A DNA stretch of 54,913 bases, from positions 1 through 54,913 of the IMG/VR virus record IMGVR_UViG_3300049489_000585. One strand, given 5' to 3'. How positions within the stretch are numbered: position 1 is the first letter of the stretch; each line of letters begins with the position of its first letter. Of this stretch, positions 2,579 to 54,913 are shown in pieces. Origin of the DNA: a virus. A program made the translations under genes and the position numbers. Below the pieces are notes generated by a model. It was not told the origin of the DNA. It did no database searches and saw only the letters and a list, made by a program, of their open reading frames with translations.

Positions 2579-2600
2579 GGTTTAGTCCTTTGTGTGTGGT

Positions 2601-2936: not shown

Positions 2937-2990
2937 CCATAACCCTGCGCTCAACCGGACCGAGTACGGCCGGTTAGCTCCACGTTGGGC
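2937..2990 (+). other. attC: attC12, last site of the array
   Basis: The left box is CCATAAC (2937-2943) and the right core GTTGGGC (2984-2990). Arms GCTCAACCGGACCG and CGGCCGGTTAGC pair, leaving the 5' arm C and A unpaired. It is closely similar to attC3. The methyltransferase gene to its right ends inside it. Confidence 0.87.
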
Positions 2991-3574: not shown

Positions 3575-3583
3575 CGTTGAGCC

Positions 3584-4426: not shown

Positions 4427-4453
4427 GGGGCTCCTTGGTGGTGGTGGGCTTGG

Positions 4454-4789: not shown

Positions 4790-4908
4790 CGGGTCCTTTC
4801 GGTGGTGGTCAGAAGAAAGGCGGGCGGCCGTTGCCGGCGCGTGGTGGGAATCGAGGGAGGGAGGAGACAGGAGGTGCCCACCGCGCAGGATTCGCCCGTG
4901 GAAATGGG
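4790..4908. other. Short non-coding gap in the early operon
   Basis: About 120 bp without a supported gene between two early genes. It contains purine-rich GGGAGG runs on the plus strand and the AAAGGA ribosome site of the next gene. No terminator-like hairpin or promoter is seen. Confidence 0.4.
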
Positions 4909-5088
4909 TCAGTCGCAGCGCGTGCAGCGATTGAGCTCGGACACGCCGTGCGGACAGCGGGAGGCCCGCGCAGCGTTGCCGGCGGCCAGCGCGAGTTGGC
5001 GCTGCAGGCGTTCGATGGCGTCGGCCGCCTCTCGCTGCAGAAGCACGTTGGGCGGGCTCTCGCGAAGCCGCTGGATGAGAGCGTCCAT
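4909..5088 (-). CDS. Small putative zinc-binding protein
   Basis: A 59-residue protein: an amphipathic N-terminal half (ADAIERLQRQLALAAG), then SRCPHGVSELNRCTRC, whose three cysteines and histidine could bind zinc. Its ATG overlaps the stop of the SbcC-like gene (TGATG), so it is translationally coupled to it. Confidence 0.68.
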   Translation of the reverse strand: MDALIQRLRESPPNVLLQREAADAIERLQRQLALAAGNAARASRCPHGVSELNRCTRCD

Positions 5089-6884: not shown

Positions 6885-6888
6885 GGCG

Positions 6889-7989: not shown

Positions 7990-7996
7990 GGTGTTC

Positions 7997-8839
7997 TCAC
8001 TCGTGGAAGTTGCAGGTAGACCAGCGCGCGCAATACTTCTCAGCGCACAGCATGGACTGGGGGTTAGGCGGGAACAGTCCCGTCCGAAACATCTCGGCCG
8101 CGAACTCGATCAGCCCGCGCTGGCCGTCGGCGCCGACCATCACGCGCTTGGCATCGAAGACCTTCGACGCCATGACCTGCGGCTTGCTGCTGGTCTGCAG
8201 TGCCAGCACCTGGCCGCCTAGGGTCTCCACCTGTTCGGTGTGCTCGTACATCAGTTGGTAGGTGCCGACCTGGGCGCTGCGGCCCTTGACCTTGGCCTCG
8301 CCCTTCTCGATGACGCGCGAGCCAGACTTGAGGTCCGGGATCACGATGCCGTCATCGGTGGCGGCCACGCGAGCGCGATCCATGGTGCCGGTCAGCCGGA
8401 TGACGATGCCACTGCCGCAGTCGATGTCGAGCGGGTCGAGCTTCTGCTCCACGCTCTTGAACGTGAACCGGGGCGACAGGTCCAGGCAGTACATCGTGTG
8501 CAGCTGCAGGCCGATCTTCTCGGCGTCGCTGACGGTCAGGTCATCCTTGCTGTAGTCCACGTCACGATCGGGCTTGTGCAGCGCGTCGACAAAGGCGCCC
8601 GCGGCGTCGTTGACCGACATGCGGCTGCCGCCCGGCAGGCGCCCGCTGTCGAAGGCCGCGGTGCTGGCGTGGAGTGCGGTGCCCAGCTGCGCGCGCAGGC
8701 CCGAGGCGTTGCGCATGCCCAGCAGGTGCTCGCCTTCCCACCGATGGGCGCAGTCGAACAGGCCACCCCAACTGGATGCGCGCACGGCGGTGACGCTGCG
8801 CTCAGCGACGACGGGGATGATGCGTTCAGGCGCGTTCAC
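7997..8839 (-). CDS. PD-(D/E)XK exonuclease, Cas4/RecB-like
   Basis: A 280-residue nuclease-like protein: an N-terminal ASSWGGLFDCAHRWEGEHLLGM region, a central GTMDRAR then IPDLKSGSR (the D...DxK part of the active site), QVGTYQLMYEHT, and a C-terminal CAEKYCARWSTC cluster. Cysteines at both ends suggest an iron-sulfur site as in AddB/Cas4 nucleases. The GTG start overlaps the stop of the preceding small gene. It would be the resecting partner of RecT. Confidence 0.82.
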   Translation of the reverse strand: MNAPERIIPVVAERSVTAVRASSWGGLFDCAHRWEGEHLLGMRNASGLRAQLGTALHASTAAFDSGRLPGGSRMSVNDAAGAFVDALHKPDRDVDYSKDDLTVSDAEKIGLQLHTMYCLDLSPRFTFKSVEQKLDPLDIDCGSGIVIRLTGTMDRARVAATDDGIVIPDLKSGSRVIEKGEAKVKGRSAQVGTYQLMYEHTEQVETLGGQVLALQTSSKPQVMASKVFDAKRVMVGADGQRGLIEFAAEMFRTGLFPPNPQSMLCAEKYCARWSTCNFHE

Positions 8840-8946
8840 AGCGGATTCCCCCAGAACTCAAACACCTTCGCCCAGGCCTTGGCCGCAGCGTTGCGGCGCG
8901 TCATGCCACTGCGGCGGTAGAAGCGATACAGCCGGATGAGCGTCAC
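8836..8946 (-). CDS. Very small basic protein (36 aa)
   Basis: GTG-started frame MTLIRLYRFYRRSGMTRRNAAAKAWAKV followed by a short tail. It overlaps both neighbours by a few bases (GTGA at each end), and a similar peptide type occurs in other phages. Coupling supports a real gene; function is unknown. (Only motifs of it are listed: MTLIRLYRFYRR, NAAAKAWAKV.). Confidence 0.55.
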   Translation of the reverse strand: MTLIRLYRFYRRSGMTRRNAAAKAWAKVFEFWGNPL

Positions 8947-9104
8947 AGCAGCACCACCGCGGCGGCAGCGCCCAGGATCGCGGCAATGGCGGCCCACTGC
9001 ACCCAGGGCAGCCACCGCGACGTGCTGCGGGCCTCGGCGTCGACCAATGCGGCGAGCTCGCTGCTGTACTCCAGGCCGTCCCGGATGTCGGAGTCGTGCG
9101 TCAT
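8943..9104 (-). CDS. Small single-span membrane protein
   Basis: A 53-residue protein starting MTHDSDIRDGLEYS with GAGG upstream. A C-terminal hydrophobic helix (WLPWVQWAAIAAILGAAAAV) ends the protein. Overlaps its neighbours by a few bases. Function unknown. Confidence 0.62.
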   Translation of the reverse strand: MTHDSDIRDGLEYSSELAALVDAEARSTSRWLPWVQWAAIAAILGAAAAVVLL

Positions 9105-9247
9105 GCCGGCCTCACGCTCAGGCGCTGCAGGTCGTCGTCCAGCGCATCGATGGCAGCGATCACGGCATCGCAACTGCTGCGCGCGATCAGGGTCAGCGTG
9201 CCACTGGCGCCGCTGCGGAGAACGTAGCGGGCGAGGAAGGTGCGCAT
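9101..9247 (-). CDS. Small protein (48 aa), function unknown
   Basis: Frame starting MRTFLARYVLRSGASG and ending LQRLSVRPA. ATGA overlap with the next gene and TGATG overlap with the previous one fit a tightly packed operon. No domain is recognised. Confidence 0.55.
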   Translation of the reverse strand: MRTFLARYVLRSGASGTLTLIARSSCDAVIAAIDALDDDLQRLSVRPA

Positions 9248-9375
9248 CACGGCTTCACCTCATCAACAACGGTGCCGCCGACCAGCGCCCCGGCTGCCCA
9301 CATGGCCAGCATCGACAGCGCGATGCCGGACAGCAGGCCCAGCAGGAACGCGAACGCAAGAAGGTCGGGGCGCAT
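9247..9375 (-). CDS. Small hydrophobic membrane peptide (42 aa)
   Basis: Starts MRPDLLAFAFLLGLLSGIAL and continues hydrophobic to about residue 35, so one or two membrane helices are likely. It is coupled by TGATG overlaps on both sides. Function unknown. Confidence 0.55.
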   Translation of the reverse strand: MRPDLLAFAFLLGLLSGIALSMLAMWAAGALVGGTVVDEVKP

Positions 9376-9764
9376 CACGTGTTCCTCGGCATCTTGTCCA
9401 GCGCGCGCTGCAGTTCAGTGGCGAGGTGCTCCATCCAGTCGGACGAGATCCACACCTCGTTCAGCTTGACCGCGAACACCGTGTACCCGTCGTGCGGGTG
9501 CCGCTCGTCCGCCGGCTCGACCTCGCACGCGACATCCCACACCGCGCCGCGGTACGGCACGCCGACGATCGCGTCACCGGGGCGGATCTGGATCTGGTGC
9601 TGCGGGCCGCGGCGGGCGGGGATCAGCGCTGCCTCAGCGGCAAGCGCGGTGTAGTGCTCGACGGCGCGGGCCTTGTCGACCGGCCGCTCAAGCACCGCCT
9701 GCGCGGCCTCGAATTCACCGAACGAGCTGTCCGACACGTCGGGCGTGGGGATGCGGGCGTTCAT
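9375..9764 (-). CDS. Conserved phage protein, function unknown
   Basis: A 129-residue protein. The N-terminal third is charged and helical. The C-terminal part has a compact beta-like pattern (IQIRPGDAIVGVPYRGAVWDV, TVFAVKLNEVWISSDWMEHL). Overlaps both neighbours, second gene of the leftward operon. Confidence 0.65.
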   Translation of the reverse strand: MNARIPTPDVSDSSFGEFEAAQAVLERPVDKARAVEHYTALAAEAALIPARRGPQHQIQIRPGDAIVGVPYRGAVWDVACEVEPADERHPHDGYTVFAVKLNEVWISSDWMEHLATELQRALDKMPRNT

Positions 9765-10018
9765 GCTGCCTCCGCGACGAGCCCGGCCGGCAACGCTTCA
9801 CGCCGCCCCGCCTTGGCGGCCTTGACGGCCTGCCGGCGGCCCAGCGCCTTCACGTTGGCGCGGCGCAGCTTCTTCTCCGCGCTGGCCGTGTGCTGACCCA
9901 GCCAGTCGCCACCCTTGGCCGGCTTCGGTGCGGCCGGGTGCTTCACGCCCTGGCCATGTCGGCGCCCCGAGCCCTTCTTGGTCGGGTGCTCCGTTCGTTG
10001 GTCGGTGATCTGCGGCAT
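9761..10018 (-). CDS. Small very basic protein, first gene of the leftward operon
   Basis: An 85-residue protein rich in Lys, Arg, Ala and His with no acidic clusters, possibly nucleic-acid binding. It is the first gene after the leftward promoter; GGGAGC precedes the ATG. Function unknown. Confidence 0.6.
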   Translation of the reverse strand: MPQITDQRTEHPTKKGSGRRHGQGVKHPAAPKPAKGGDWLGQHTASAEKKLRRANVKALGRRQAVKAAKAGRREALPAGLVAEAA

Positions 10019-10051
10019 CTGCGGCTCCCGGTGCGTGTTGCGATGGGATGA

Positions 10052-10080
10052 AATCTACACGCACCGTTTATGCATGTCAA
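10052..10080 (-). promoter_or_regulatory. Leftward early promoter (PL-like)
   Basis: On the minus strand, TTGACA (10075-10080) and TAGATT (10052-10057) are separated by 17 bp, close to a perfect sigma-70 promoter. It drives the recombination operon, and read-through would run into the cassette array, intI and int. Its -35 box lies in one arm of a concentric dyad. Confidence 0.82.
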
Positions 10081-10119
10081 CGGGTTGTGAAGAAAATTCT
10101 TTTCTCACGGGCCGTTGAC
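10076..10119. promoter_or_regulatory. 44-bp concentric operator dyad between divergent promoters
   Basis: Outer arms GTCAACGG (10076-10083) and CCGTTGAC (10112-10119) are perfect inverted repeats that contain the -35 boxes of both promoters. An inner imperfect palindrome (10087-10108, GTGAAGAAAA.. to ..TCTCAC) has the same centre. This would let one dimeric regulator control both directions. Confidence 0.65.
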
Positions 10120-10143
10120 TGTCTCAAACGAAGCGTTTAGCAT
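10115..10143 (+). promoter_or_regulatory. Rightward early promoter (PR-like)
   Basis: TTGACT (10115-10120) and TAGCAT (10138-10143) with a 17-bp spacer. The predicted transcription start is at about 10150, at the ATG of the first gene (10151), so that gene may be translated from a leaderless mRNA. Confidence 0.72.
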
Positions 10144-10150
10144 CGGCGCT

Positions 10151-10387
10151 ATGGACGAAATCATCGACAAGGCTTGCGAGGCCGCAGGCGGGCTGACAAA
10201 GCTCGCAGAGGCCATCGGTCAGAGTACGCAGACTGTCTCGAACTGGCGATCTCGCGGCGTCCCCGTCGTGCACTGCGCAGCCATCGAACAGGCCACCGGC
10301 GGCAAAGTCACGCGCCGCGATCTGCGACCCGACGACTGGGCTCGCATCTGGCCCGAGCTGGCCGAGCCCACCAAGGCCGCAGCGTGA
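10151..10387 (+). CDS. Cro/YdaS-like helix-turn-helix protein
   Basis: A 78-residue protein with an N-terminal HTH (KACEAAGGLTKLAEAIGQSTQTVSNWRSRGVPV), the pattern of YdaS/Cro-like phage regulators. It is the first rightward gene and probably binds the dyad at 10076-10119. No ribosome site precedes the ATG, and the promoter places transcription start at the ATG. No CI-like repressor with a peptidase domain is visible, so how lysogeny is held is unclear. Confidence 0.82.
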   Translation: MDEIIDKACEAAGGLTKLAEAIGQSTQTVSNWRSRGVPVVHCAAIEQATGGKVTRRDLRPDDWARIWPELAEPTKAAA

Positions 10388-10400
10388 CCGGAGCCGCTGC

Positions 10401-10586
10401 ATGACCATGCTCTCCCAACGCACCGCGCTCGCGGTCATCGGCCGGCTGTCGGCCAATCCGATCCCACTGCGCCCGCTGTGCGCGTGCTTCCCCGGCACCT
10501 GCCGCGGTGGCCAGGTCATCGACGGGCGGCTGGCCACCGGACAGTGGTGCAGGGCGCAGGTGCAGGCGGGGAGGGCGGGATCATGA
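10401..10586 (+). CDS. Small protein, function unknown
   Basis: A 61-residue protein (starts MTMLSQRTALAVIGRLSA; contains LCACFPGTCRGGQ). GGAG lies 7 nt before the start and the stop overlaps the next ATG. No family recognised. Confidence 0.55.
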   Translation: MTMLSQRTALAVIGRLSANPIPLRPLCACFPGTCRGGQVIDGRLATGQWCRAQVQAGRAGS

Positions 10587-11434
10587 CCGCCCCCCGCCCA
10601 GGCTCCTCGATCGACCGCGCCATGCGCGCGCTGCAGGCGTCCGGCCCGCTGCCGCGCGCTGAGCTGGCCCGCCTGATCGAGCGCGAGGACGACGAGCTCG
10701 ACGGCCTGCTTCGCTACGGCTTGCGCATGGGCCTGCTGGTGCGCAGCAACGGCGGCGATGACGTGTCCTATGCGCTGGGGGATGGGGTGCCGGTGGAGAT
10801 CGAGGCTCGGCCATCGGAGCCCCCAGCGAACGAATACACCGCGCGGCGGGGATCGCAACACGTTTTGAAGGCAGAGGCCGCCAGGCCCGACGCTACGGAC
10901 CGCGACACCCCCGCCATCATCAGCCCGGTCGGCGGACCCATGGGCATAGGGCAAGCTGCCGCCGCAGCCCCACGACAGAGCCTTGGCCAGCCGACTGCCG
11001 TGCTGGCCGAGCTGCGGCCCGGCCCCTACCAACCTCAGTCCGGCAGTCAGGCCGCGATCCTGCTGGCCTACCTGCAGCAGCACGCGCCGCACGGCGGGGA
11101 AGCGTGGCTGTCGCCTGCCGATCTCGCCGCGTCCGGGGCCAAGCAGTTCACCGTGCGCGCGAGCCTGGACACCGCGATGAAGTGCGGCGCCGTGTTGTCC
11201 AGGGGTAAGCCTCAACGCTATCAGTGCGGGCCGAACGCGCCCGTGGTGGCGGGCGTGGCGCCGACGGCAGAGCCTGCTGCTGCGCCTGCGCCTGACACCG
11301 CCGCAGCTGTCGAGCTCGCGGCCTTTCTGCTGAAGCAGATGGACGGCGAGATCGAGCGCCTGCAGAACAACCTGCGGGTGGTGCGCCGGCGGCGCGAGGA
11401 CTTCGCTGCGGCGATGAAGGGGAGGCGCGCTTGA
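10583..11434 (+). CDS. Winged-helix-like phage protein, function unknown
   Basis: A 283-residue protein. It appears to carry two winged-helix-like segments (RALQASGPLPRAELARLIE near residue 15; ILLAYLQQHAPHGGEAWLSPADLA near 155) and a C-terminal coiled coil (EIERLQNNLRVVRRRREDF). The layout suggests a DNA-binding replication or control protein. It lies just before the DUF1376 gene and overlaps both neighbours. Confidence 0.6.
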   Translation: MTAPRPGSSIDRAMRALQASGPLPRAELARLIEREDDELDGLLRYGLRMGLLVRSNGGDDVSYALGDGVPVEIEARPSEPPANEYTARRGSQHVLKAEAARPDATDRDTPAIISPVGGPMGIGQAAAAAPRQSLGQPTAVLAELRPGPYQPQSGSQAAILLAYLQQHAPHGGEAWLSPADLAASGAKQFTVRASLDTAMKCGAVLSRGKPQRYQCGPNAPVVAGVAPTAEPAAAPAPDTAAAVELAAFLLKQMDGEIERLQNNLRVVRRRREDFAAAMKGRRA

Positions 11435-11649
11435 GCGACCAACTGCCTGCCCCGCTGGTGCCGGCCGAAGTCGACCTGCGCACCGCCGCCGCAACGCGCG
11501 GACAGGCTCGCTACAGCGACGGCCGGCCGTGCATCCATGGGCACGTCGGAGACCGGTACACGCGCAACGCGTCATGCGTCGAGTGCCAACGCATTCGATG
11601 CCGAGCGGACAAGGCTCGGATTCGCACCCTCCTGGGCTCGCCACGTTGA
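11431..11649 (+). CDS. Small zinc-finger-like protein
   Basis: A 72-residue TTG-started frame with CIHGHVGDRYTRNASCVECQR, a CxxH...CxxC zinc-knuckle pattern seen in small phage proteins. TTGA overlaps on both sides indicate translational coupling. Confidence 0.62.
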   Translation: MSDQLPAPLVPAEVDLRTAAATRGQARYSDGRPCIHGHVGDRYTRNASCVECQRIRCRADKARIRTLLGSPR

Positions 11650-12464
11650 ACTACTACGAACACCACCTCGGCGACTACGACGGCGCCACCGCGCACTTGA
11701 CGTGGCTGGAGGACTGCGCCTACCGGCGGATGCTGTGCCTGTACTACCGCACGGAGTCACCGCTGCCGGCCGATTTGAAGCAGGTCTGTCGCCTCGTGCG
11801 CGCTACCTCCAAGCCCGAGCGCGATGCGGTGCAGCAGGTGCTGGGGGAGTTCTTCGTTCTGGCCGACGACGGCTGGCGCAACACCAGGTGCGACGAGGAC
11901 ATCGCGGCGTATCACGAGCTAGAGCCCGAGCGCGAGGCCAAGCGCGAGAACGCGAAGGAGCGCCAGCGCCGGGCCCGTCAGCGGCGTGCGGAGCTGTTCG
12001 AGTCGCTACGCGGTCACAACATCGTGCCGCCGTACGACACCACGACGAAGGCACTTGAAGCGCTGCTGTCACGCGTGACAGATGCTCCACAAGTCACGGC
12101 ACCTGTCACACCTGTCACGTGTGACAACACGGCTACCCATACCCACCTCCCACCTCCCACCTCCCAGATTGAAGAGAAGAAGCCTTCGGCTTCTGGGCGC
12201 GGTTCGCGCCTTCCCGCCGACTGGGACCCCGGTCAGCCTGGCTTCGCGTTTGCCACGACGCTGGGGCTGGCGAACGGCGTCGTGACCGCCGAGCTCGACA
12301 AGTTCCGCGACCACTGGGCCGCCAAGACTGGCAAGGACGCCACCAAGGCCGACTGGCAGGCGGCGTGGCGCAACTGGTGCCGCAGGTCCGTCGAGATGCG
12401 TCCGCCGGCCCACGGCGGCCAGCACGGCGGCGGTGCGCCGTTCGACGCGTCGGAGGTGCGGTAA
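11646..12464 (+). CDS. DUF1376-type phage replication protein
   Basis: A 272-residue protein beginning (TTG) with NYYEHHLGDYDGATAHLTW and LEDCAYRRMLCLYYRTE, the signature of DUF1376 phage proteins located beside replicative helicases. A basic linker (KERQRRARQRRAE) and a C-terminal KADWQAAWRNWCRR helix follow, as in O-like proteins. It likely takes part in origin recognition or helicase loading. A CCCACCT triplet repeat near 12145-12168 encodes a Pro-rich linker. Confidence 0.75.
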   Translation: MNYYEHHLGDYDGATAHLTWLEDCAYRRMLCLYYRTESPLPADLKQVCRLVRATSKPERDAVQQVLGEFFVLADDGWRNTRCDEDIAAYHELEPEREAKRENAKERQRRARQRRAELFESLRGHNIVPPYDTTTKALEALLSRVTDAPQVTAPVTPVTCDNTATHTHLPPPTSQIEEKKPSASGRGSRLPADWDPGQPGFAFATTLGLANGVVTAELDKFRDHWAAKTGKDATKADWQAAWRNWCRRSVEMRPPAHGGQHGGGAPFDASEVR

Positions 12465-34042: not shown

Positions 34043-34807
34043 ATGGCCCGCGCAGGTCGCTCATTCCCGATCCAGGCTTGGCGCCGGTACCCGGCGCCGG
34101 CTGGCGGTGGTGGCGCGACAGCCACAGGCCAGACGATCACTGCCACGGCAAGCCTGATTGCTGGATCTGCGAGCGGCGAGGTCAACGCTACCTCTAGCGG
34201 CGTGACGCTGACAGCGACTGCCAGCCTCGTACTGGGCTCGGCCAGCGGCAGCGCGACCGCGGCCGGCCAGACGCTCACGGCAACCGCAAGCCTGCTGGCC
34301 GGCAGCGCCACCGGCGAGGTCAACTCTACGGCCACGGGCCAGACGCTCACGGCCACCACCAGCCTTGTCGCCGGCTCAGCGTCGGGCGGCAACGCTGGCA
34401 CGGCCGCAGGCGCAACGGTCACCGCCACCGCCTCGCTCATCGCTGGCGTGGCCACCGGCGAGGTCAACGCGACGGCGGCTGGCACCACGCTGAGCGCAGG
34501 CGTCAGCCTGATCGCCGGCTCTGCATCCGCGGCCAACGACGCCACGGCATCCGGCGTGGTGATCGAGGCCTCGGCCTTGTTCATCGCCGGCTCGGCAACT
34601 GGCAACGCCGGCGCCACCGCGCCTGGCGTCGTGATCAGCCTGCAGGCCTTGCTGGTAGCGGGCAGCGCCTACGGGCCGAACATGTCGGCCTCGCCAGGGT
34701 TCATTGCCGCAGGCACCCCGCGCCGCTACAGCGCCACGCGGTCAAAGCCGATCTTCGAGGCCGCCATCGGCGCGGACGGCCGCAACCTACCGAGGCGCAG
34801 GGCATGA
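34043..34807 (+). CDS. Tandem-repeat surface protein
   Basis: A 254-residue protein built of about eight imperfect 24-residue repeats (34123-34680) of the form GQTLTATASLIAGSASG. The DNA is repeated as well. The regular Ala/Thr/Gly pattern suggests a beta-rich fibrous or capsid-surface protein. Nothing enzymatic is visible. Confidence 0.68.
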   Translation: MARAGRSFPIQAWRRYPAPAGGGGATATGQTITATASLIAGSASGEVNATSSGVTLTATASLVLGSASGSATAAGQTLTATASLLAGSATGEVNSTATGQTLTATTSLVAGSASGGNAGTAAGATVTATASLIAGVATGEVNATAAGTTLSAGVSLIAGSASAANDATASGVVIEASALFIAGSATGNAGATAPGVVISLQALLVAGSAYGPNMSASPGFIAAGTPRRYSATRSKPIFEAAIGADGRNLPRRRA

Positions 34808-47644: not shown

Positions 47645-48928
47645 TCAGCCGACTTTGCGGTCTTTCGACTTGCGCAAGTCATTGATTTTCAACACGTGCG
47701 CACCGCGGGAACGGGTTGTGATTCTGGTCGTCGTGGGTTCGAGTCCCATCAGCCACCCCACCCTATGAGAATCGGCCACTTCGGGGGCCTTTTTCTTGGC
47801 CGGCTCGGACGGCACTTGTCGCGCCGTTGTCGCAGGCCCGATGTTCCCGGCCCATGCCGCGACGTGGCTCGGCGCCAAGTGGGCGTAGCGCTGCAGCATG
47901 TCGGCCGAAGCCCAGCCGCCGAGTTCCTGCAGGGCGCTGTCAGGCGTTCCGGCCATGCGGTGCCAGCTGGCCCAGGTGTGCCGCAGGTCGTGCCAGCGCA
48001 GCGTGGGTAGCCCGGCCCGAATGCAGGCCTTGCGCCAGGCCGCGCTGCTGGCCTTGCCGGTGGGCATCTCCCAGGTCAGCCGCGGCTTGTCCTCCGGCCG
48101 GCGCTTCTTGGTCCACCGCGGGGCCGGGAACACCCAGCGCTTGTGCATGCCCTGCTGGCCGCGCAGCACGTCCATGGCGTCGGGGTTCAGCGGCACCGAG
48201 AGCGCCTTGCCGGCCTTGGCCTCGTCGGCGTGCACCCAGGCGGCCGCCCGCGGCAGGTCGACCTCTGACCACTGCAGCAGCCGGACGTTGCTCTCGCGCA
48301 GGCCGGTGGCCAGCGCGAAGCGGGCCATGGCGCGCAGGTGGTCCGGCAACTCGGCCAGCAGCGCCAGCGCTTGCTCGTGCGTGATCCAGTTCGTGCGGCC
48401 CTCGGGCTCGTGCAGCTTGGGCACCGGGGGCGGCGCCGGCAGCCAGCCGCGCAGTTGGGCGTGCTTCAGGATGCGCGACAGGTCGCTCAGGTAGCGGTTG
48501 ACGGTGGCCGGCGACAGCATGCGCGGCGCCGGTGGCCTCTCTCCGGCAGCCTTGGCGGCCTCGATGTCGGCGGCGTTCGCCGGCTCGGCCTGGCGCTCGC
48601 TGCTGATCTTGCGCACCATGTCGGCGGTGATGCCGGCCAGCGGCTTGCCGATCAGGCGGGCGGACAGCCAGCGGAGGTTCCGCTTGGCCTCCTCGAGGCT
48701 GCGCAGGTGCTGGTGCTCATCCAGCCACGACAGGACCGCTTCGTCCCAGGTGTGGGACGGCGCCTCACCTAGACGGTGCTGCCGCCACTGATCGCGGTAA
48801 GCCGTGGCGGCCCACTCCTTCGCCGCGGCTTCGTCCGTGGTGCCAGTGCTGCGGACAAAGCGCCGGCCGTCCTGGGCGGTGAAATCGACCCACCAGGTGC
48901 CGCGCTTGCCTCGTCGGTAGACCCGCAT
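47645..48928 (-). CDS. int: Phage tyrosine integrase
   Basis: A 427-residue recombinase. The start MRVYRRGKRGTWWVDF at 48928 has AAGGA upstream. The catalytic pattern is TGLRESNVRLLQW (first Arg), HDLRHTWASWH (HxxR), GGWASADMLQRYAHL (W and Tyr). An N-terminal arm-binding domain comes first. It integrates the phage through attP at 47713-47760; the last ~45 codons (GLEPTTTRIT) run through that attachment site. It differs from intI and lacks the IntI insert. Confidence 0.92.
   Translation of the reverse strand: MRVYRRGKRGTWWVDFTAQDGRRFVRSTGTTDEAAAKEWAATAYRDQWRQHRLGEAPSHTWDEAVLSWLDEHQHLRSLEEAKRNLRWLSARLIGKPLAGITADMVRKISSERQAEPANAADIEAAKAAGERPPAPRMLSPATVNRYLSDLSRILKHAQLRGWLPAPPPVPKLHEPEGRTNWITHEQALALLAELPDHLRAMARFALATGLRESNVRLLQWSEVDLPRAAAWVHADEAKAGKALSVPLNPDAMDVLRGQQGMHKRWVFPAPRWTKKRRPEDKPRLTWEMPTGKASSAAWRKACIRAGLPTLRWHDLRHTWASWHRMAGTPDSALQELGGWASADMLQRYAHLAPSHVAAWAGNIGPATTARQVPSEPAKKKAPEVADSHRVGWLMGLEPTTTRITTRSRGAHVLKINDLRKSKDRKVG
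47713..47760 (+). other. attP: attP core: 3' half of a tRNA-His gene
   Basis: From GGGTTGTGATTC (anticodon GTG) through the T loop (GGGTTCGAGTCCC) to AGCCACCCCA the sequence matches the 3' part of bacterial tRNA-His. The 5' half of a tRNA is absent. Integrating here would restore the host gene. The core sits next to int and between two arm-type repeats. It is present uninterrupted, so the sequence shows the circular or virion form. Confidence 0.87.
47814..47833 (+). repeat. Putative integrase arm-type site, right of attP core
   Basis: ACTTGTCGCGCCGTTGTCGC, the partner of the repeat at 47621-47640 (18 of 20 identical). It lies within the 3' end of int. Confidence 0.6.
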
Positions 48929-49122
48929 TCGTCCTTGCTCCCTGCCGCTGGCGGCCGATGGTACTGGGTGCGCACCCACTCGATCAGATCCTCGTCGATG
49001 AACAGCCACGCCCGCCCGACCTTGGTCGCCGGCAGCCCGCGGCGCTCGATGGCCTCGGTGACGGTGTCCGGGTGCGCCTTCAGCATCTTGGCGGCGCGGG
49101 TGAGGGTGAGGATGCGGGCCAT
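48769..49122 (-). CDS. Excisionase-like helix-turn-helix protein
   Basis: A 117-residue protein starting MARILTLTRAAKMLKAH; residues 1-55 form a MerR/excisionase-type HTH (PDTVTEAIERRGLPATKVG, then FIDEDLIEWV). The tail overlaps int by 160 bp in another frame. Its start lies just after the intI stop. It could be the Xis that steers the phage integrase, or a regulator of either recombinase. Confidence 0.7.
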   Translation of the reverse strand: MARILTLTRAAKMLKAHPDTVTEAIERRGLPATKVGRAWLFIDEDLIEWVRTQYHRPPAAGSKDECGSTDEASAAPGGSISPPRTAGALSAALAPRTKPRRRSGPPRLTAISGGSTV

Positions 49123-49124: not shown

Positions 49125-50222
49125 TCAGACCAGCGAGTCCAGCGGGCTGCGCACGCACATGCCGCCCTGCTTGGCCGGCAGGACGTGGGTATAGATCATC
49201 GTGGTCTCCAGATCGGCGTGGCCGAGTAGGGCCTGAATCGTGCGGATGTCGTACCCGTCCTGCAGCAGGTGGGTGGCAAAGGAGTGCCGCAATGTGTGCG
49301 GGGTGGCGCGCTTCATGATCCCGGCGCCGGCCACGGCCCGGGCCATCAGGCGCTGGATGCCGTCCTCGTGAAGGTGGTGGCGCCTGACAAGGCCAGTCCG
49401 CGGGCACGTGACGTAGGTGTCGGTGGCGAAGATCCACTGCCAGCGGATGTCCTGCCCGGCCCGCGGGTACTTCAGGTGCAGCGCGTGCGGAAGCTCGACG
49501 TCGGCCCGGCCGGCAGTGAGGTCGACCTGGTGCAGCGCCTTGCGCGCTTCCATCACCTCGCGCAGCTGGCCGGCCAGCGATCGCGGCAGCATGACGGTTC
49601 GATCCTTGGCGCCCTTGCCGTCGCGGACGGTGATGCTGCTCGACTCGATGTCCGCGTCCTGCATGCGCAGGCGCAGACCTTCCGTCAGCCGCAGGCCAGC
49701 GCCGTACAGCAGGCGCAACACCAGGCCGCGGATGTTGGCCTGCGGGATCTGCAGCCACAGGCGCGCCACCTCGTCCCGAGTGAGCACGACCGGCAACTTC
49801 TGCGGCTGCTTGGCGCGCACGATTCCCTCGACCCATGGCAGCTCGACCTGCAGGGCTTGCTGGTACAGGAAAAGCAGCGCGGCCAGGGCCTGGCGCTGGG
49901 TGCTGGCCGACACGTCGCGCACCTGGGCAAGATGCGTGAGGAACTGCGACACCTCCGGCGCGCCCATCTCGAGCGGGTGGCGCTTGCCGGACCACAGCAC
50001 GAACTGGCGCGTCCAGTGCCAGTAGGCCTGCTCCGTACGGCGCGAATAGTGTTTGGCCCTGATCGCGCCGACCACCAGGTGGCGCAGGTGGCCAGGCTCA
50101 CCCGGCTGCGGCTCACTCGCGGATGCAGGAACGCTGCTGCGGGCCAGCCCATCTCCGCGAGCCAGCGCGACAGCGCGGCGCGTAACGGGCTGGCAGGTCG
50201 GCGGTGCTTGGAGGATGGCCAT
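49125..50222 (-). CDS. intI: Integron integrase IntI
   Basis: A 365-residue tyrosine recombinase of the IntI family. Core-binding domain: IRAKHYSRRTEQAYWHWTRQ, FLTHLAQVRDVSASTQRQAL, LPVVLTRDEVARLWL. Catalytic residues: Arg in YGAGLRLTEG, Lys in RDGKGAKDR, HTLRHSFATH, GHADLETTMIYTH with the nucleophilic Tyr. The IntI-only helix that handles attC extrahelical bases is present (ALHLKYPRAGQDIRWQWIF). It is about 25-45 residues longer at the N-terminus than usual, so the start may be downstream. No frameshift or missing residue is seen: it should be active. attI and the cassette array lie upstream. Confidence 0.96.
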   Translation of the reverse strand: MAILQAPPTCQPVTRRAVALARGDGLARSSVPASASEPQPGEPGHLRHLVVGAIRAKHYSRRTEQAYWHWTRQFVLWSGKRHPLEMGAPEVSQFLTHLAQVRDVSASTQRQALAALLFLYQQALQVELPWVEGIVRAKQPQKLPVVLTRDEVARLWLQIPQANIRGLVLRLLYGAGLRLTEGLRLRMQDADIESSSITVRDGKGAKDRTVMLPRSLAGQLREVMEARKALHQVDLTAGRADVELPHALHLKYPRAGQDIRWQWIFATDTYVTCPRTGLVRRHHLHEDGIQRLMARAVAGAGIMKRATPHTLRHSFATHLLQDGYDIRTIQALLGHADLETTMIYTHVLPAKQGGMCVRSPLDSLV

Positions 50223-50270
50223 GGCGTCGGGTGTTACACCGCAGATCCTGCGGTCGAATTGAAGTTAGGC
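50223..50270 (+). other. attI: attI site
   Basis: The core GTTAGGC (50264-50270), preceded by GAA, lies 42 bp from the intI start and opens the array; crossover would fall between G and TT. Two inverted repeats precede it: GTGTTACAC (50231-50239) and CCGCAGATCCTGCGG (50239-50253). They could be IntI-binding or operator sites. The stop of the cassette 1 gene is inside this region. No LexA box is seen. Confidence 0.82.
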
Positions 50271-50518
50271 GTCTCAACGCGCTCCCACCAGCCGCCCCAC
50301 TCAGCAGGCGTCAGTCTGTCGGCGTGCAAGTGTTCGTGCGGCTGGCAGCACTTCAGCTTGCGCGGCATGTAGTCGTTCGGCCTATCGCCTTGCAAGCGCG
50401 GCGCGCTGGCGTTGGTGTAGCCAACGAACAGCACTTGTTCGCGCATGCGTCCGAGCACGTCGCTATAGCGGTTCCGGTAGGTGCCAACCTCGGTCGGCAA
50501 GGTCTTTGTGTACGCCAT
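50234..50518 (-). CDS. Cassette 1: conserved phage protein, function unknown
   Basis: A 94-residue protein. The start MAYTKTLPTEVGTYRNRY at 50518 has AGGAG upstream (a longer frame starts at 50563). The middle has LFVGYTNASAPRLQGDRPND and CCQPHEHLHADRL. The last residues (NFNSTAGSAV) are read from attI. It ends 11 bp before intI and is read in the same direction. Confidence 0.72.
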   Translation of the reverse strand: MAYTKTLPTEVGTYRNRYSDVLGRMREQVLFVGYTNASAPRLQGDRPNDYMPRKLKCCQPHEHLHADRLTPAEWGGWWERVETPNFNSTAGSAV

Positions 50519-50564
50519 CGCTTTCTCCTTTGTTCGCTGGCCTGGGTCACGCGCCGGTGGCAAC

Positions 50565-50630
50565 GCCTAACCCGTCGTCCGACCTGACAGCCCCGGCAAG
50601 CCGGGTCTGCAGGTCAACTTTGCGTTAGGG
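50565..50630 (+). other. attC: attC1 recombination site
   Basis: R boxes GCCTAAC (50565-50571) and GTTAGGG (50624-50630). Arms GTCCGACCTGACAG and CTGCAGGTCAAC pair with one C and one A unpaired in the 5' arm; a CCCCGG/CCGGG inner stem closes it. Confidence 0.9.
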
Positions 50631-50631
50631 C

Positions 50632-51381
50632 TCAAAACCCCATGCCCTGCTGCTCCGGCACGGGCTGCGCCAAATCGAGCAGGGAACCTTGCGCGTAAGC
50701 GGCTTCTATCCGCTGGCACGCCAAATCGAAGGCAGCGCGGTCAACCTCGCAGCCTATGAACTTCCGCCCAGCGCGGGCACATGAAACGCCAGTCGTTCCT
50801 GCGCCCATGTGCGTGTCCAGCACCGTGTATCCGGGCCGCGAGTAGTCCGCCACCAGCGCATCCATCAGCAGGGTCGGCTTGCCACCCATGCGGGCCTTGT
50901 CGTTCCAGCCAGGCCCGGCCACGTAGCCGCCCGGCAGCGTGCCCCACTTCATCTGCGCCTTGGTGCGCGCCACCACAATCCAGTCCGTCCACGAGCTGGG
51001 GCCGTCACCACTCAGGCGCACAGCGCGCCCCGGCTGGTAAAAGGGCAGCGGTGCAAACGCATAGCGCCCGGCCTTCTCCAGCGCGGTGCGCACAGCCAGC
51101 GCCAAGTCGCTGTCGGTCATCCACACCACCCAGCCGCTGCACACCCGCGTGTACTGCTCGGCAAAGTACGCCACGTCTTCAAGCGTCAGCGCGCGGTAGC
51201 CCAGGGCCTGCCGTTCGGCGCTGTCGCGTGCTTTCGAGGCACCGGCATCGTGGCCCGCGTGGCACCGTTCGCTGTAGGGCGGGTCGGTTATCACCGCGTC
51301 CACGCTGGCAAGCGTGGGCAGCACTTCGCGGCAATCACCGCGGTGCAGTGTGGCTTGCCCAATGGTCACGGTCTCCAGCAT
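50632..51381 (-). CDS. Cassette 2: DNA N6-adenine/N4-cytosine methyltransferase
   Basis: A 249-residue enzyme. DAVITDPPYSERCH holds the catalytic DPPY near residue 30, and the C-terminal VLDTHMGAGTTGVSC with FIGCEVD is the SAM-binding part; this order is that of beta-class enzymes. The start MLETVTIGQATLHRGD at 51381 has GAGGA 6 nt upstream; the longer frame begins inside attC2. It may protect phage DNA from host restriction. Antisense to attC2. Confidence 0.9.
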   Translation of the reverse strand: MLETVTIGQATLHRGDCREVLPTLASVDAVITDPPYSERCHAGHDAGASKARDSAERQALGYRALTLEDVAYFAEQYTRVCSGWVVWMTDSDLALAVRTALEKAGRYAFAPLPFYQPGRAVRLSGDGPSSWTDWIVVARTKAQMKWGTLPGGYVAGPGWNDKARMGGKPTLLMDALVADYSRPGYTVLDTHMGAGTTGVSCARAGRKFIGCEVDRAAFDLACQRIEAAYAQGSLLDLAQPVPEQQGMGF

Positions 51382-51405
51382 TCGTTGTCCTCGTAGCAAA
51401 TACAG

Positions 51406-51464
51406 CCCTAACAGGTCGCTCAAACGGACGGGCCTACGGCCCGCCGTTTAGCTTTGCGTTAGCC
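51406..51464 (+). other. attC: attC2 recombination site
   Basis: R boxes CCCTAAC (51406-51412) and GTTAGCC (51458-51464). Arms GCTCAAACGGACGGGCC and GGCCCGCCGTTTAGC pair, leaving a C and an A of the 5' arm unpaired; loop TAC. Confidence 0.92.
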
Positions 51465-51922
51465 CGCTCAAGCGGATCCAGCACAAATTCCGCGATGTGA
51501 CGGCCGGTGCCCTTTCCTGCGGATCCGTCCTCGGTCGCAAGCCAGCGCACGTCGCCCAGGTTGCGTACCTTCGCGCCCTCGGCCAGCAGCATCAGCACCC
51601 ACTTGTCTATCGGGTACACCAGCACCACGCGCTTGCCCTTCTTGGCTTCGGCAATCGCCTTCCGGGCCCAGGCCGTCGGCCCCTTCTTCTTCCCCTGGTG
51701 CATCACGGATCCAAAGGGCGGGTTGACGTAGTTACTTTCGCCCCACTCGCACGTAAGGCCGTCGAACTCGGGCGGCTTCGGGTAAGGGCACGGGTCGAAG
51801 GTGAAGCTGTAGCGCGCGTGCAGGTCTGCGAACAAATCCGGCGGCGTCAGCCAGTAGTGCTTGCCATCGTCGCCGTTGCCAGCGTGGAACTTGTTTGCGT
51901 CAGGTGCTAGGTTGTTTGCCAT
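51434..51922 (-). CDS. Cassette 3: phage Dam-like N6-adenine methyltransferase
   Basis: A 162-residue enzyme of the phage N6A-methylase family: HYWLTPPDLFADLHARYSF, TFDPCPYPKPPEFDG, ESNYVNPPFGSVMH (NPPF active-site motif). GAGAG precedes the start at 51922. The end (RANAKLNGGP) is read from attC2. With cassette 2 it forms a DNA modification set. Confidence 0.9.
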   Translation of the reverse strand: MANNLAPDANKFHAGNGDDGKHYWLTPPDLFADLHARYSFTFDPCPYPKPPEFDGLTCEWGESNYVNPPFGSVMHQGKKKGPTAWARKAIAEAKKGKRVVLVYPIDKWVLMLLAEGAKVRNLGDVRWLATEDGSAGKGTGRHIAEFVLDPLERANAKLNGGP

Positions 51923-51947
51923 CGTTCTCTCATTTGTTGTTGCAGCG

Positions 51948-52001
51948 GGCTAACCCGCCGCTGAACCGGACTGAGTACAGCCGGTTAGCTGCACGTTCGG
52001 C
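51948..52001 (+). other. attC: attC3 recombination site
   Basis: Left box GGCTAAC (51948-51954), right core GTTCGGC (51995-52001). Arms GCTGAACCGGACTG and CAGCCGGTTAGC pair with one G and one A unpaired in the 5' arm. Very similar to attC12. Confidence 0.9.
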
Positions 52002-52009
52002 TTCATGCC

Positions 52010-52354
52010 TCAGTTCGCCATGTCGGCGGCAGCCAGCACAATCGCGCGCCTCGTGGCGGCCCGCGGGTCCGTTCCCCACAGCACATCGTGCGCCACAGCC
52101 TCGCCGTCAAAGGCAACGCCGGCCACCGTCACCGCGCCCTCGGTCAGAGTCTGCGCAATGTCTAGTTCCAGCGTCACGGCAAGGTCCAGCGCCTGGCCGC
52201 TGTCGGTCAGAGGGTTCCACCACGTCGCGTGCGTCAGCCACAGTGAGGGCTCGTTCGGCATCTCGGCCTCACGCTCGCTCTGCTTGCGTGCGTTCAGTCC
52301 GTAGCCGGCGGCTTGCGCGGCCTTCAGCAGCAGTTCTTTGTCCGTCAGCATCAT
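52010..52354 (-). CDS. Cassette 4: conserved phage protein, function unknown
   Basis: A 114-residue protein of a recurrent phage type (DKELLLKAAQAAGYG, WWNPLTDSGQALDLAVTLEL, RAATRRAIVLAAADMA). AAAGGAG precedes the ATG pair at 52354/52351. No enzymatic motif. Stop lies 9 bp from the attC3 core. Confidence 0.8.
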   Translation of the reverse strand: MMLTDKELLLKAAQAAGYGLNARKQSEREAEMPNEPSLWLTHATWWNPLTDSGQALDLAVTLELDIAQTLTEGAVTVAGVAFDGEAVAHDVLWGTDPRAATRRAIVLAAADMAN

Positions 52355-52387
52355 CTCGCTCCTTTGAATTCACGCGCTCCGGCCGCA

Positions 52388-52439
52388 GCCGAACTACTCG
52401 CTCAAGCCGACCTTCGGCGGCTTAGCTCGAACGTTATGC
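52388..52439 (+). other. attC: attC4 recombination site
   Basis: Left box GCCGAAC (52388-52394), right core GTTATGC (52433-52439). Arms GCTCAAGCCGACC and GGCGGCTTAGC pair with C and A unpaired; loop TTC. At 52 bp the shortest of the array. Confidence 0.88.
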
Positions 52440-52440
52440 A

Positions 52441-52851
52441 TCAGTAACCCGGGTAGTTGCGCTCGGCCTGCGCATCGTTGTGCTTGCTCCAATACTCTGC
52501 CTTCGCCGTGGTGTAGCTCCACTCGTTGCGCCCGTCTTCAGGCCCAGCCACCGTGTACGGTCCGAACTCACTTTGCACATTCCTTGCCCGCAGCGCCGAC
52601 AGAATGCAAGCCGGGCAATCGTTCGCAGCCTCACACATCGCCTTGAACCCACTCGCATCCAGCAGGCGCAGCAGTTCATCGCGCGGCGGCGCTGGCTCTG
52701 GCCCGCCATCGTCGTGCAGATTGGCGCACATGCCGCACACACGCTGCGGGTTCAGCGTGCAGCCGCGCTCGTGGCGCTTCATTGCGCTCGGGCTTCCGTT
52801 GCCCTTGTTGCAGTGGTCGCAGTAGTAGCGCGGCCTCATTGCGGTTCTCAT
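52441..52851 (-). CDS. Cassette 5: zinc-finger-like protein, function unknown
   Basis: A 136-residue protein with RYYCDHCNKGNGSPSAMKRH, ERGC and RVCGMCANLH, which suggest two metal sites in the first 45 residues, and CPACILSALRA further on. GGAGAGG precedes the start at 52851. The remainder is charged. No known family. Confidence 0.72.
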   Translation of the reverse strand: MRTAMRPRYYCDHCNKGNGSPSAMKRHERGCTLNPQRVCGMCANLHDDGGPEPAPPRDELLRLLDASGFKAMCEAANDCPACILSALRARNVQSEFGPYTVAGPEDGRNEWSYTTAKAEYWSKHNDAQAERNYPGY

Positions 52852-52878
52852 GCTTGTCCTCTCCGTTCACCAACTGAT

Positions 52879-52936
52879 GCATAACCCTTCGCTCGAACGG
52901 ACGGCCTACGGCCGCCGTTCAGCTCCCACGTTAGCC
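52879..52936 (+). other. attC: attC5 recombination site
   Basis: Left box GCATAAC (52879-52885), right core GTTAGCC (52930-52936). Arms GCTCGAACGGACGGCC and GGCCGCCGTTCAGC pair with C and A unpaired. Confidence 0.91.
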
Positions 52937-52946
52937 AGACACATGC

Positions 52947-53294
52947 TCACTTCAGTATCTGGCGAAGAGCCCAGTACTCGGGGTTGACGATGGCGGTCAT
53001 GGCATCGCTGAACACCAGGCCGCCAATCAGCGCGGTAAGCCCGCAAACGATGCCGACGCCAATCCAAGCAAGGCCGCGGTCAAACTCATCGTTCCATTCG
53101 GGCCTATCACCAGATGTTTTCCTGCCCACAAAGCGCGCGACCCACACGCACGCAGCAGCCCACGCGGTCAACACCACCAAGTCAAGCGCGCCAGAGAGCG
53201 GAGCCTGCTTCACCAGCACGCCCCACAGATACTCCGCCGTTGTGCCGAGTTTGTTTGCCAGCGCCGTCACGGCCTGCAAGGTCTTGTCGTCCAT
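52947..53294 (-). CDS. Cassette 6: two-span membrane protein
   Basis: A 115-residue protein. The start MDDKTLQAVTALANKLG at 53294 has AGGA upstream. Two membrane helices (DLVVLTAWAAACVWVARFV; LAWIGVGIVCGLTALIGGLV) with a charged loop between. Could be a superinfection-exclusion or holin-like protein; no direct evidence. Confidence 0.75.
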   Translation of the reverse strand: MDDKTLQAVTALANKLGTTAEYLWGVLVKQAPLSGALDLVVLTAWAAACVWVARFVGRKTSGDRPEWNDEFDRGLAWIGVGIVCGLTALIGGLVFSDAMTAIVNPEYWALRQILK

Positions 53295-53331
53295 GTCATT
53301 CCTATTCGCATGCCAGCATTTCACCAGTGCT

Positions 53332-53394
53332 GGCTAACTGGCGCATGCAGCGGACTCGCCCTAGCGGGCTCGCGCGCTGATGCTGTCGTTCGGC
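53332..53394 (+). other. attC: attC6 recombination site
   Basis: Left box GGCTAAC (53332-53338), right core GTTCGGC (53388-53394). Arms GCATGCAGCG and CGCTGATGC pair with one unpaired G in the 5' arm; inner CTCGCCC/CGGGCTCG. Confidence 0.86.
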
Positions 53395-53395
53395 C

Positions 53396-53713
53396 TCAAG
53401 TTCCAACCTTGTCGGCCGTCCCCTTCCAGGTGAATTCGCCATCGGCGCCCACCGGGAAGTGCGCGCGGCAGATGGCGCAGAACGTGCCGCTGTAGAAGGC
53501 GGGCTCGCGGGCATAGGTCTCGGCCAGCGCCAGGCCCATCGTCGTCACGCCGCCGCACTTTTCGTGCACGTAGGACTGGCGCACGGGCCGCACAAAGCCC
53601 TTCGCGCGCTCTTCGGCGCTCAGCACCACGTAGCCCTTCTGCTGCCCCGTGGCCGGGTCAATCTCGCGGTGGTCGGGCGTGACGGGCGAACCGTCTGTCA
53701 GCGTGGTGTTCAT
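53396..53713 (-). CDS. Cassette 7: conserved phage protein with two CxxC-like sites
   Basis: A 105-residue protein of a recurrent phage type: YVHEKCGGVTTMGLALAETY, SGTFCAICRAHFPVGADGEF and KGTADKVGT at the end. Cysteines suggest zinc binding. Its ATG overlaps the stop of the upstream gene (ATGA). It stops directly beside the attC6 core. Confidence 0.78.
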   Translation of the reverse strand: MNTTLTDGSPVTPDHREIDPATGQQKGYVVLSAEERAKGFVRPVRQSYVHEKCGGVTTMGLALAETYAREPAFYSGTFCAICRAHFPVGADGEFTWKGTADKVGT

Positions 53714-53925
53714 TGCTTCTCCGCAAGCTCGAAATTGAAGGCGCCGCCTTCGATGTTGAAAGAACAGACGAAACGCCCGGTCTCGTCCACCTCTTGCGCC
53801 GGAATCGACACCTTGCTGCCCAGCCTGCGCAGCAGCGCAATCAGAAGCTGGTCCTTGAAGTCGTCGATCACGTCCGCGTGCAGCCCAGCGCCAGCGGCGC
53901 GAGCGGCATCAGTTCCCTTGCCCAT
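53710..53925 (-). CDS. Cassette 7: small protein, function unknown
   Basis: A 71-residue protein. The start MGKGTDAARAAGAGLHADV at 53925 has AAGGA upstream; a longer frame enters attC7. DDFKDQLLIALLRRLGSKV is helical. First of two coupled genes in cassette 7. Its ATG lies in the 127-bp block repeated at 1-127. Confidence 0.72.
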   Translation of the reverse strand: MGKGTDAARAAGAGLHADVIDDFKDQLLIALLRRLGSKVSIPAQEVDETGRFVCSFNIEGGAFNFELAEKQ

Positions 53926-53953
53926 GTCAGTCCTTTCGCGTCGGCGCATTGAG

Positions 53954-54054
53954 GCCGAACCCTTCGTTCCACCGGACAAGCCCCGGCGGGTGGCATTGGC
54001 GCAATGACCTACTTGGTCAGCGCCGGGTCTTGCCGGTGAACTCCGACGTTAGGC
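53954..54054 (+). other. attC: attC7 recombination site
   Basis: Left box GCCGAAC (53954-53960), right core GTTAGGC (54048-54054). Arms GTTCCACCGGACAAG and CTTGCCGGTGAAC pair with an extra C and A in the 5' arm. A long inner part (CCCGGCG with CGCCGGG) makes it 101 bp. The segment up to GTT recurs at 31-127. Confidence 0.9.
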
Positions 54055-54269
54055 GTCTTGCTGTCATCGAAGCCGTGCTCCACGGCTCGCCAGTCGCCGC
54101 GCCTGGCTTCGCGCATGTCCAGCGCGCGGAATTCGGCCGTGATCTGCCTGCGGAACTTGCGCGCCGCGTTCACATCGGCAGTCACGGTCATGTTCACCTG
54201 ACAGGCCATGTAGAGCCCGGTGGACTTCCCGTCCTTGGTGAAGTTCTCCACCAGCCACGAGTACGTCAT
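54009..54269 (-). CDS. Cassette 8: conserved small protein, third gene
   Basis: An 86-residue protein starting MTYSWLVENFTKDGKSTG, with YMACQVNMTVTADVNAARKF and EARRGDWRAVEHGFDD. The end (NVGVHRQDPALTK) is read from attC7. The ATG overlaps the stop of the second gene (ATGA). Function unknown. Confidence 0.74.
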   Translation of the reverse strand: MTYSWLVENFTKDGKSTGLYMACQVNMTVTADVNAARKFRRQITAEFRALDMREARRGDWRAVEHGFDDSKTPNVGVHRQDPALTK

Positions 54270-54484
54270 GAGTAGTCCTCGTCAAAGTTGCACGGCACCG
54301 TCCACTGCTTGCCGCAGCGGCTGCACTCGATGATGTCGTGATCGTCTATTACGCCGCAGCAGTCCACAGTGCGCGGCGCCGGGCATCTTTGCAGGTGCTT
54401 CTGGCAAAGCTCGGGCTTCTCGGCATCGTGCAGGCTGCACCCGCCTTTGATACGGCCACCTTCGTAGCGCTTAGGCGTCGTCAT
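54266..54484 (-). CDS. Cassette 8: small zinc-finger-like protein, second gene
   Basis: A 72-residue protein starting MTTPKRYEGGRIKGGC, with CQKHLQRCPAPRTVDCC and IIECSRCGKQW, several cysteines that could bind zinc. Its start overlaps the first gene of the cassette by 14 bp. Function unknown. Confidence 0.68.
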   Translation of the reverse strand: MTTPKRYEGGRIKGGCSLHDAEKPELCQKHLQRCPAPRTVDCCGVIDDHDIIECSRCGKQWTVPCNFDEDYS

Positions 54485-54746
54485 ACAGGTCGTATCGCTG
54501 GCAAAGCGCGTCCATGTCAAGCCGGGCGCGCTGCGTCACCAGTTCGCGTCCGTCACGAAATACCACGCAGCGGTAGCGCTGGCCCGGACGAATCTTCCAC
54601 TTGTCGGCCTCAACGCCTTCAAGCACCAGCCGCTCGTCAGCAGTTACGGCATCGCGCGGCTGGCCGTAACTGCGCCACATTTCGCTGGCGTCGCAGTCGT
54701 AGAACTTGCGCGCGGTTCTCACTTCGTCTTTCAGTACCAATACCAT
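54471..54746 (-). CDS. Cassette 8: small protein, first gene
   Basis: A 91-residue protein starting MVLVLKDEVRTARKFYDCD, with KIRPGQRYRCVVFRDGRELV. AGAGGAG precedes the ATG. Resembles small phage proteins of unknown function. Overlaps the second gene of the cassette. Confidence 0.7.
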   Translation of the reverse strand: MVLVLKDEVRTARKFYDCDASEMWRSYGQPRDAVTADERLVLEGVEADKWKIRPGQRYRCVVFRDGRELVTQRARLDMDALCQRYDLYDDA

Positions 54747-54769
54747 CGTTTGCTCCTCTGCGCCACGAC

Positions 54770-54823
54770 GCCTAACCCGTCATTCGAGCCGACCGTTCCG
54801 GCGGCTCAATTCCCACGTTGTGC
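54770..54823 (+). other. attC: attC8 recombination site
   Basis: Left box GCCTAAC (54770-54776), right core GTTGTGC (54817-54823). Arms ATTCGAGCCGACC and GGCGGCTCAAT pair with C and A unpaired. Its right core is the one found in the hybrid site at 31-131. Confidence 0.91.
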
Positions 54824-54913
54824 CGCACTGAACACCGCCGCGCCAGTTCCACCAGCCAAGCGCGGAACTCCGGCGGCGTGTGCTCTCGCTCGGCCTTGCT
54901 CATGATCTCGACC
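54772..54913 (-). CDS. Cassette 9 gene, 3' end in the cassette 8-containing arrangement (cut by window end)
   Basis: Same gene as 86-784, but with attC8 on its left. The frame then ends NVGIEPPERSARMTG with a stop in the left R box, instead of NVGVHRQDPALTK. The 5' part lies beyond the contig end and continues at about base 222. Confidence 0.78.
   Translation of the reverse strand, partial: VEIMSKAEREHTPPEFRAWLVELARRCSVRHNVGIEPPERSARMTG

Follow-up and report, generated by a model that had tools for sequence, protein, structure and literature searches.

Integrons are usually viewed as bacterial devices that are occasionally picked up by phages. Phage-borne integrons are already known from the Vibrio phages p16 and p42, a phage P1 isolate, and the Shewanella prophage M16-3 (Qi et al. 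2023, PMC9892861). Like the locus described here, these captured integrons place an IntI, attC sites, and cassettes in a phage genome, and methyltransferase cassettes occur among them. Their integrases are of host type (75% to V. cholerae IntIA, 95% to S. oneidensis) and are 43–56% identical to the IntI of our locus, whereas the latter falls in its own phage-dominated clade and is accompanied by inverted cassettes. The same study reported clusters of attC sites without an IntI (CALINs) in the virulent phages TJE1, P12002L, and PH101, which were recombinogenic with IntI1 (PMC9892861). In contrast to these CALIN phages, our locus contains an IntI, and its IntI, attI, and array are complete and adjoining.

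Classical chromosomal and class 1 integrons share several features with our locus: IntI reads away from attI, the attC sites have the same polarity, and cassettes enter at attI, which in our case is predicted from sequence only. Their cassette genes, however, read away from attI, whereas those of our locus read toward it. The "reverse" integrons of Treponema (PMC3607928) resemble our locus in that intI and the cassette genes are co-directional. In Treponema, it is intI that is reversed and reads toward attI, whereas here intI keeps the classical direction, pointing away from attI, and the cassette genes are reversed. No earlier description of a phage-dominated integron lineage with inverted cassettes was found in the open-licence literature.

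Phage genome and integron integrase

The window, that is, the whole stretch of 54,913 bp analysed here, comprises an entire IMG/VR virus record. Judged by its gene content, it is a near-complete temperate siphovirus-like phage with a circular map. The head and tail genes (26480–47570, + strand) encode a protease, a major head protein, a tape measure protein, and tail proteins (phrog_976, phrog_29, and tape measure/tail families). Downstream of intI lie an excisionase-like gene and a second tyrosine integrase, which is of phage type and the phage's own (47645–49122, − strand; TIGR01764, PF00589, phrog_1), and this integration module together with the head and tail genes marks a tailed temperate phage. 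Genes for RecT, a PD-(D/E)XK nuclease, and an SbcC-like protein are located upstream of the cassette array (3584–10018, − strand) and are co-directional with the cassettes. One gene of the tail region contains six imperfect copies of a 66–72-nt repeat (34111–34532).

The phage-borne integron integrase gene intI (49125–50222, − strand) encodes a protein of 365 aa. IntI scored 412.7 bits against TIGR02249 (integrase_gron; cut-off 265), and its best solved relative was VchIntIA (2A3V, E = 2.6e-72). In the alignment with 2A3V, all six catalytic residues (R, K, H, R, H, Y) and the IntI-specific patch were found in IntI. The protein has an N-terminal extension of approximately 50 residues before the usual integrase start, which is partly common to its relatives.

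The attI (50233–50270, + strand) was recognised by its conservation across the clade. It comprises GTTACAC (50233), a CCGCAG..CTGCGG inverted repeat, and a GTTAGGC core (50264), and the start of intI lies 42 bp from this core, with the gene reading away from attI. Homology between the phages ends at the attI core, and the recombinant joint of two related contigs (L013 and L014, described below) also sits here. This attI is the predicted cassette entry site next to intI. With an IntI, a predicted attI, and 13 cassettes bounded by attC sites, all within a siphovirus-like genome, the locus is, on its predicted parts, a genuine phage integron.

A maximum-likelihood tree of IntI (110 rows, quick search) placed the window IntI in a clade of 25 with an SH-aLRT of 98. 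The clade consisted of 22 viral rows, the window included, and three MAG contigs, of which L053 was a 100% match to a viral record. PHROGs matches revealed genes for head or tail proteins adjacent to the integron in L004, L005, L014, L024, and L027, indicating that the relatives are viral in origin; for L013 and L026, one protein each was scanned, and neither was structural. The major head protein of the window had no match in the related records, in a search run without a positive control. Cultured phages carried only integron integrases of host type and one relative with 47% identity (Rctr41k). Rctr41k, whose IntI is the nearest of non-host type in named phages, had no convincing attC chain and was set aside.

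Cassette array and the two contig-end joints

The array consists of cassettes 1–8 (50265–54817) and continues across the contig joint with cassettes 9–13 (126–3576), giving 13 cassettes, all with genes on the − strand. A search for chained box pairs gave 12 cassettes directly, and the limit of cassette 6 was set by visual inspection. Cassette 1 (50265–50624) is bounded by a GTTAGGC/GCCTAAC box pair, and its gene (approximately 50234–50518, − strand) reads into attI. Cassette 2 (50625–51458), delimited by boxes, encodes an N6/N4 DNA methyltransferase (PF01555, 5e-13). Cassette 3 (51459–51995), also delimited by boxes, has a weak Dam-like methyltransferase match below the cut-off (PF05869, 3e-4), and its gene (51434–51922) crosses the core. 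Cassette 4 (51996–52433) has a 94.6% homologue in the related contig L132, beside a homologue of cassette 8. Cassette 5 (52434–52930) was defined by boxes and gene call, and cassette 6 (52931–53388) by the left box from the cassette 5 chain, an R'' box read by eye at 53332, and gene call. Cassette 7 (53389–54048) carries attC7 (53954–54054); it was defined by boxes and by a 127-bp repeat at 1–127, and it is the last cassette before the fork discussed below.

Cassette 8 (54049–54817, 769 bp) was delimited by boxes and contains three small ORFs (54009–54269, 54266–54520, and 54471–54746). Its site attC8 (54770–54823, + strand) has R''/R' boxes and a hairpin with bulges on the R'' side. Beyond the joint, cassette 9 (126–817) was defined by boxes and has an ORF (86–784) that crosses the core, and cassette 10 (818–1252) was defined by boxes and gene call. 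Cassette 11 (1253–1988) encodes an RNA ligase (PF09414, 1e-20), and cassette 12 (1989–2984; boxes and gene call) has three small ORFs. Cassette 13 (2985–3576) was delimited by boxes and gave weak methyltransferase-like matches; the distal array end is GTTGAGC at 3576. The other cassette products are small proteins without an assigned function. Folding gave the expected hairpin on the bottom strand of most attC sites, while attC6 folded poorly and attC8 only moderately (z = −1.7).

The first 127 bases of the window are identical to positions 53924–54050, and this identity is exact and maximal (position 128 is G and 54051 is A). Positions 54815–54913 are identical to 123–221; this second identity is exact, reaches the contig end, and has a backward extension of zero. 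The window contains no perfect long repeats other than the 127-bp and 99-bp pairs. In the joint of form B (1–127, + strand), the 127-bp end of cassette 7 runs directly onto cassette 9. In the joint of form A (54815–54913, + strand), cassette 8 is followed by the first 99 bp of cassette 9, so that the sequence support of this right joint reaches 99 bases only. The exact difference between the two joints is cassette 8: the circle measures 53,923 bp when closed through the form B joint and 54,692 bp when closed through that of form A.

The attC7 box is GCCGAAC at 53954, the boxes at cassette 8 are GTTAGGC (54048) pairing with GCCTAAC (54770), and cassette 9 begins with GTTGTGC at 125. At the joint, both forms have ACGTT, which holds the G^TT core, so the crossover would fall inside these five bases. 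Direct comparison agreed with the first-pass annotation on the two end identities, on the difference of one 769-bp cassette, and on the switch at GTT; the inverted cassette genes, the phage-dominated lineage of the integrase, and the complete genome circle go beyond that annotation. IMG/VR classes the whole virus record as "linear"; the 127-bp circular overlap is masked by the extra cassette-8 tail. A second contig with either joint was not found among the records open to the search: an exact 16-mer from the end of cassette 7 led to seven unrelated contigs, and a 20-mer of the cassette 9 start matched no contig.

The genes of cassette 9 (86–784) and cassette 8 (54009–54269) have no stop before the core and run into the neighbouring site, so their C-terminus varies with the neighbour, which for cassette 9 is the left one. 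When the tails were compared, the C-terminus of cassette 9 was ...NVGVHRQDPALTK in form B and ...NVGIEPPERSARMTG in form A. The genes of cassettes 1, 3, and 13 likewise read through the core into the neighbouring site.

Published JGI assemblies used metaSPAdes with k = 33, 55, 77, 99, and 127 (PMC7171226), which is general JGI practice and is not stated for this record. The first-pass annotation had noted that the repeat lengths of 127 and 99 match common assembler k-mers, and they are indeed the last two k of this standard series. Being consecutive, they allow the contig ends to be read as a fork in the assembly graph. A fork at k = 127 would make the contig begin exactly at the 127-mer common to both versions (1–127). 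The assembler would close the genome circle via the 7–9 joint and then append the alternative cassette-8 branch, which would end 99 bases into cassette 9, the k = 99 overlap, with the k = 127 bridge missing. A simple simulation with 150-base reads gave a bridging probability of 0.42 at 10×, 0.80 at 20×, and 0.98 at 40×. Together with the dead-end branch, these values suggest that the depth of the cassette-8 form was probably below approximately 30×, an estimate drawn from one dead-end event.

Cassette 8 and array turnover in related phages

A search with the cassette 8 protein identified nine other viral loci. The DNA homologues (77–95%) lay beside different neighbours. The alignments began at cassette base 1 in five of the nine and at base 9 in two, and the full or near-full length was aligned in two (L140 and L132). 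The family adjoins attI in L014 and L024. By these alignments, cassette 8 is a discrete travelling unit with exact edges. Its protein had no match among 50,697 records of cultured phages, and a search of 399 genomes from the order to which the Rubrivivax MAG belongs turned up a single poor match (31% identity, in a frame with stops). The cassette 8 and 4 homologues of L132 lie in a ten-core array (6361–12132) on a 44-kb viral contig with no detectable integron integrase; this array possibly depends on another integrase.

An exact presence/absence twin was observed in L013 and L014, two phage contigs from different metagenomes. They are 100% identical in intI and attI (1,095 bp) and in the next cassette (580 bp). 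Between attI and that next cassette, L014 has one cassette of the cassette-8 family and L013 has none, with a 3-bp AAC overlap. The start of the L014 contig repeats the end of its own cassette-8-family cassette for 115 bp and then passes into a different neighbour, which by its pattern is the same kind of signal as the ends of the window.

Two array versions, 7-8-9 and 7-9, were very probably present together in the sampled population. This is the best reading because a single genome could contain both joints only if it had two arrays or were itself duplicated, the breakpoints lie exactly on recombination cores, cassette 8 is independently discrete and mobile, and the L013/L014 twin demonstrates that joints of this kind occur. 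As an assembly product, the contig could in principle be chimeric or stem from one genome in which cassettes 7 and 9 are each present twice; the same observations make this highly improbable, since the joints of a random chimera would not be placed on the cores.

The two versions would differ through IntI-type recombination between attC7 and attC8 on folded bottom strands, with the crossover at G^TT, and cassette 8 would most likely leave as a circle in part of the population. We consider it highly likely that IntI-type site-specific recombination caused the difference. The agent could also be a host-encoded IntI, as Burkholderiales-type bacteria have integrons whose IntI is approximately 50% identical to that of the window, and phage attC sites can serve as substrates for IntI1 (Qi et al., PMC9892861). 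This is improbable, however, as the phage has an intact IntI beside its own attI, a pairing that is maintained across the clade. The explanation as a whole, a phage-owned integron in two coexisting versions with cassette 8 removed by IntI-type recombination, appears likely.

The backbones of L005 and L022 are approximately 96% identical on both sides of the integron, whereas the array is wholly different from attI to its distal end. From this comparison, arrays in this clade are replaced faster than the backbone changes. In 10 of the 12 relatives whose contig stops inside the locus on the array side, this end fell within approximately 127 nt of an attI or attC core, where approximately 2.5 were expected (0.21 each, from a mean cassette of approximately 600 bp). 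L010 and L011 were counted as one; that entry and L163 end at the attI core itself, and the exceptions were L003 and L187. A nine-of-ten version of the count gave p ≈ 7e-6, and the value was similar by hand after adding L163 and L187. This count serves as supporting evidence only, because some cores were positioned by eye, repetition of attC sites is another possible cause of broken assemblies, and the sample is small.

Many bacterial GTDB contigs (L052–L131) also stop no more than a few hundred bases upstream of intI, as if array heterogeneity broke assemblies there too. Smaller differences were seen as well: L003 (341–344) and L004 (8658–8710) are otherwise identical contigs that differ by a deletion of approximately 50 bp within a cassette gene, and the near-identical L017 and L018 differ by one 42-bp tandem repeat unit in a cassette (approximately L017 1552–1756).

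The first-pass annotation had attributed the mixed population to an active integrase. Its two versions stand as the best reading, while an active integrase is plausible on indirect evidence, namely the intact IntI and the fast array turnover of the clade. Recent or ongoing activity in this phage is somewhat favoured. Two long-separated strains, one of which underwent an earlier loss or gain of cassette 8, could now co-occur by chance and, with an integrase that need not be active, would look identical. The data carry no timing, and as L013 and L014 come from different metagenomes, such a difference can lie between samples. However, the contig shows no further fork at strain level, and the intact IntI and the turnover of arrays also speak against this alternative, which we regard as unlikely though realistic.

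The same annotation spoke of precise excision. The difference is precise and cassette-sized, but the sequence gives no direction between excision and insertion. Integrons insert mainly at attI and excise anywhere via attC × attC, and an internal difference is thus more simply a loss, which makes excision fairly likely. A gain, with cassette 8 inserted at attC7 of a 7-9 array, would agree with a directionless contig, with an assembled circle in the 7-9 form and a dead-end cassette-8 branch suggesting limited depth, and with the position of the cassette-8 family at attI, the usual entry site, in L014 and L024. Given the simpler account by loss, we rate such a gain as rather unlikely.

Cassette polarity and expression

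Strands were called with a codon model trained on phage genes; longest-ORF calls were dropped because they were unreliable at this G+C content. The attC boxes are palindromic, so pairing alone cannot give the reading direction, and under the opposite polarity (gene then attC, as in the classical arrangement) the boxes paired equally well. The difference between forms A and B settled the polarity, since it keeps attC7 and loses attC8, which places the cut at the right-hand GTT. The opposite polarity was ruled out on this ground, together with the agreement of L013/L014 and the side of the hairpin bulges. In the window, 20 bulges lay on the R'' side and 1 on the other arm, and bacterial integrons showed 88 to 16 on the same side.

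With the polarity settled, the cassette genes are inverted relative to attC and read toward attI in 13 of 13 cassettes of the window. The same inversion was found in 46 of the 47 scored cassettes from 12 non-redundant arrays of the clade. All 15 scored cassettes of five related Burkholderiales-type bacterial integrons (L055, L066, L069, L073, and L074) had the classical orientation. The classical layout, with genes leading away from attI and expressed from Pc, was not found in the window, and a Pc promoter on the attI side cannot express cassettes whose genes read toward attI. One leftward gene run leads from 10018 across the array to intI and on to the excisionase-like gene and the integrase. 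Because the array lies inside this single run, we infer that the cassettes would be read by the phage's own leftward transcription unit.

We think it reasonably probable that the locus represents a phage-owned integron lineage with its own inverted cassette pool, which would be read by leftward phage transcription and would swap accessory genes within populations. The genes swapped would be methyltransferases, an RNA ligase, and small unknown proteins, and the contig ends may well have caught one such swap. DNA methyltransferases are commonly linked to anti-restriction. If this reading is true, contig ends could report recombination in natural populations, and phage genome variation would be measurable cassette by cassette in existing metagenome reads. 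Some temperate phages would then own a system of site-specific gene exchange and a cassette pool apart from the bacterial one, and the reading yields a prediction of the genes that phages exchange, with DNA methyltransferases among them in this case.
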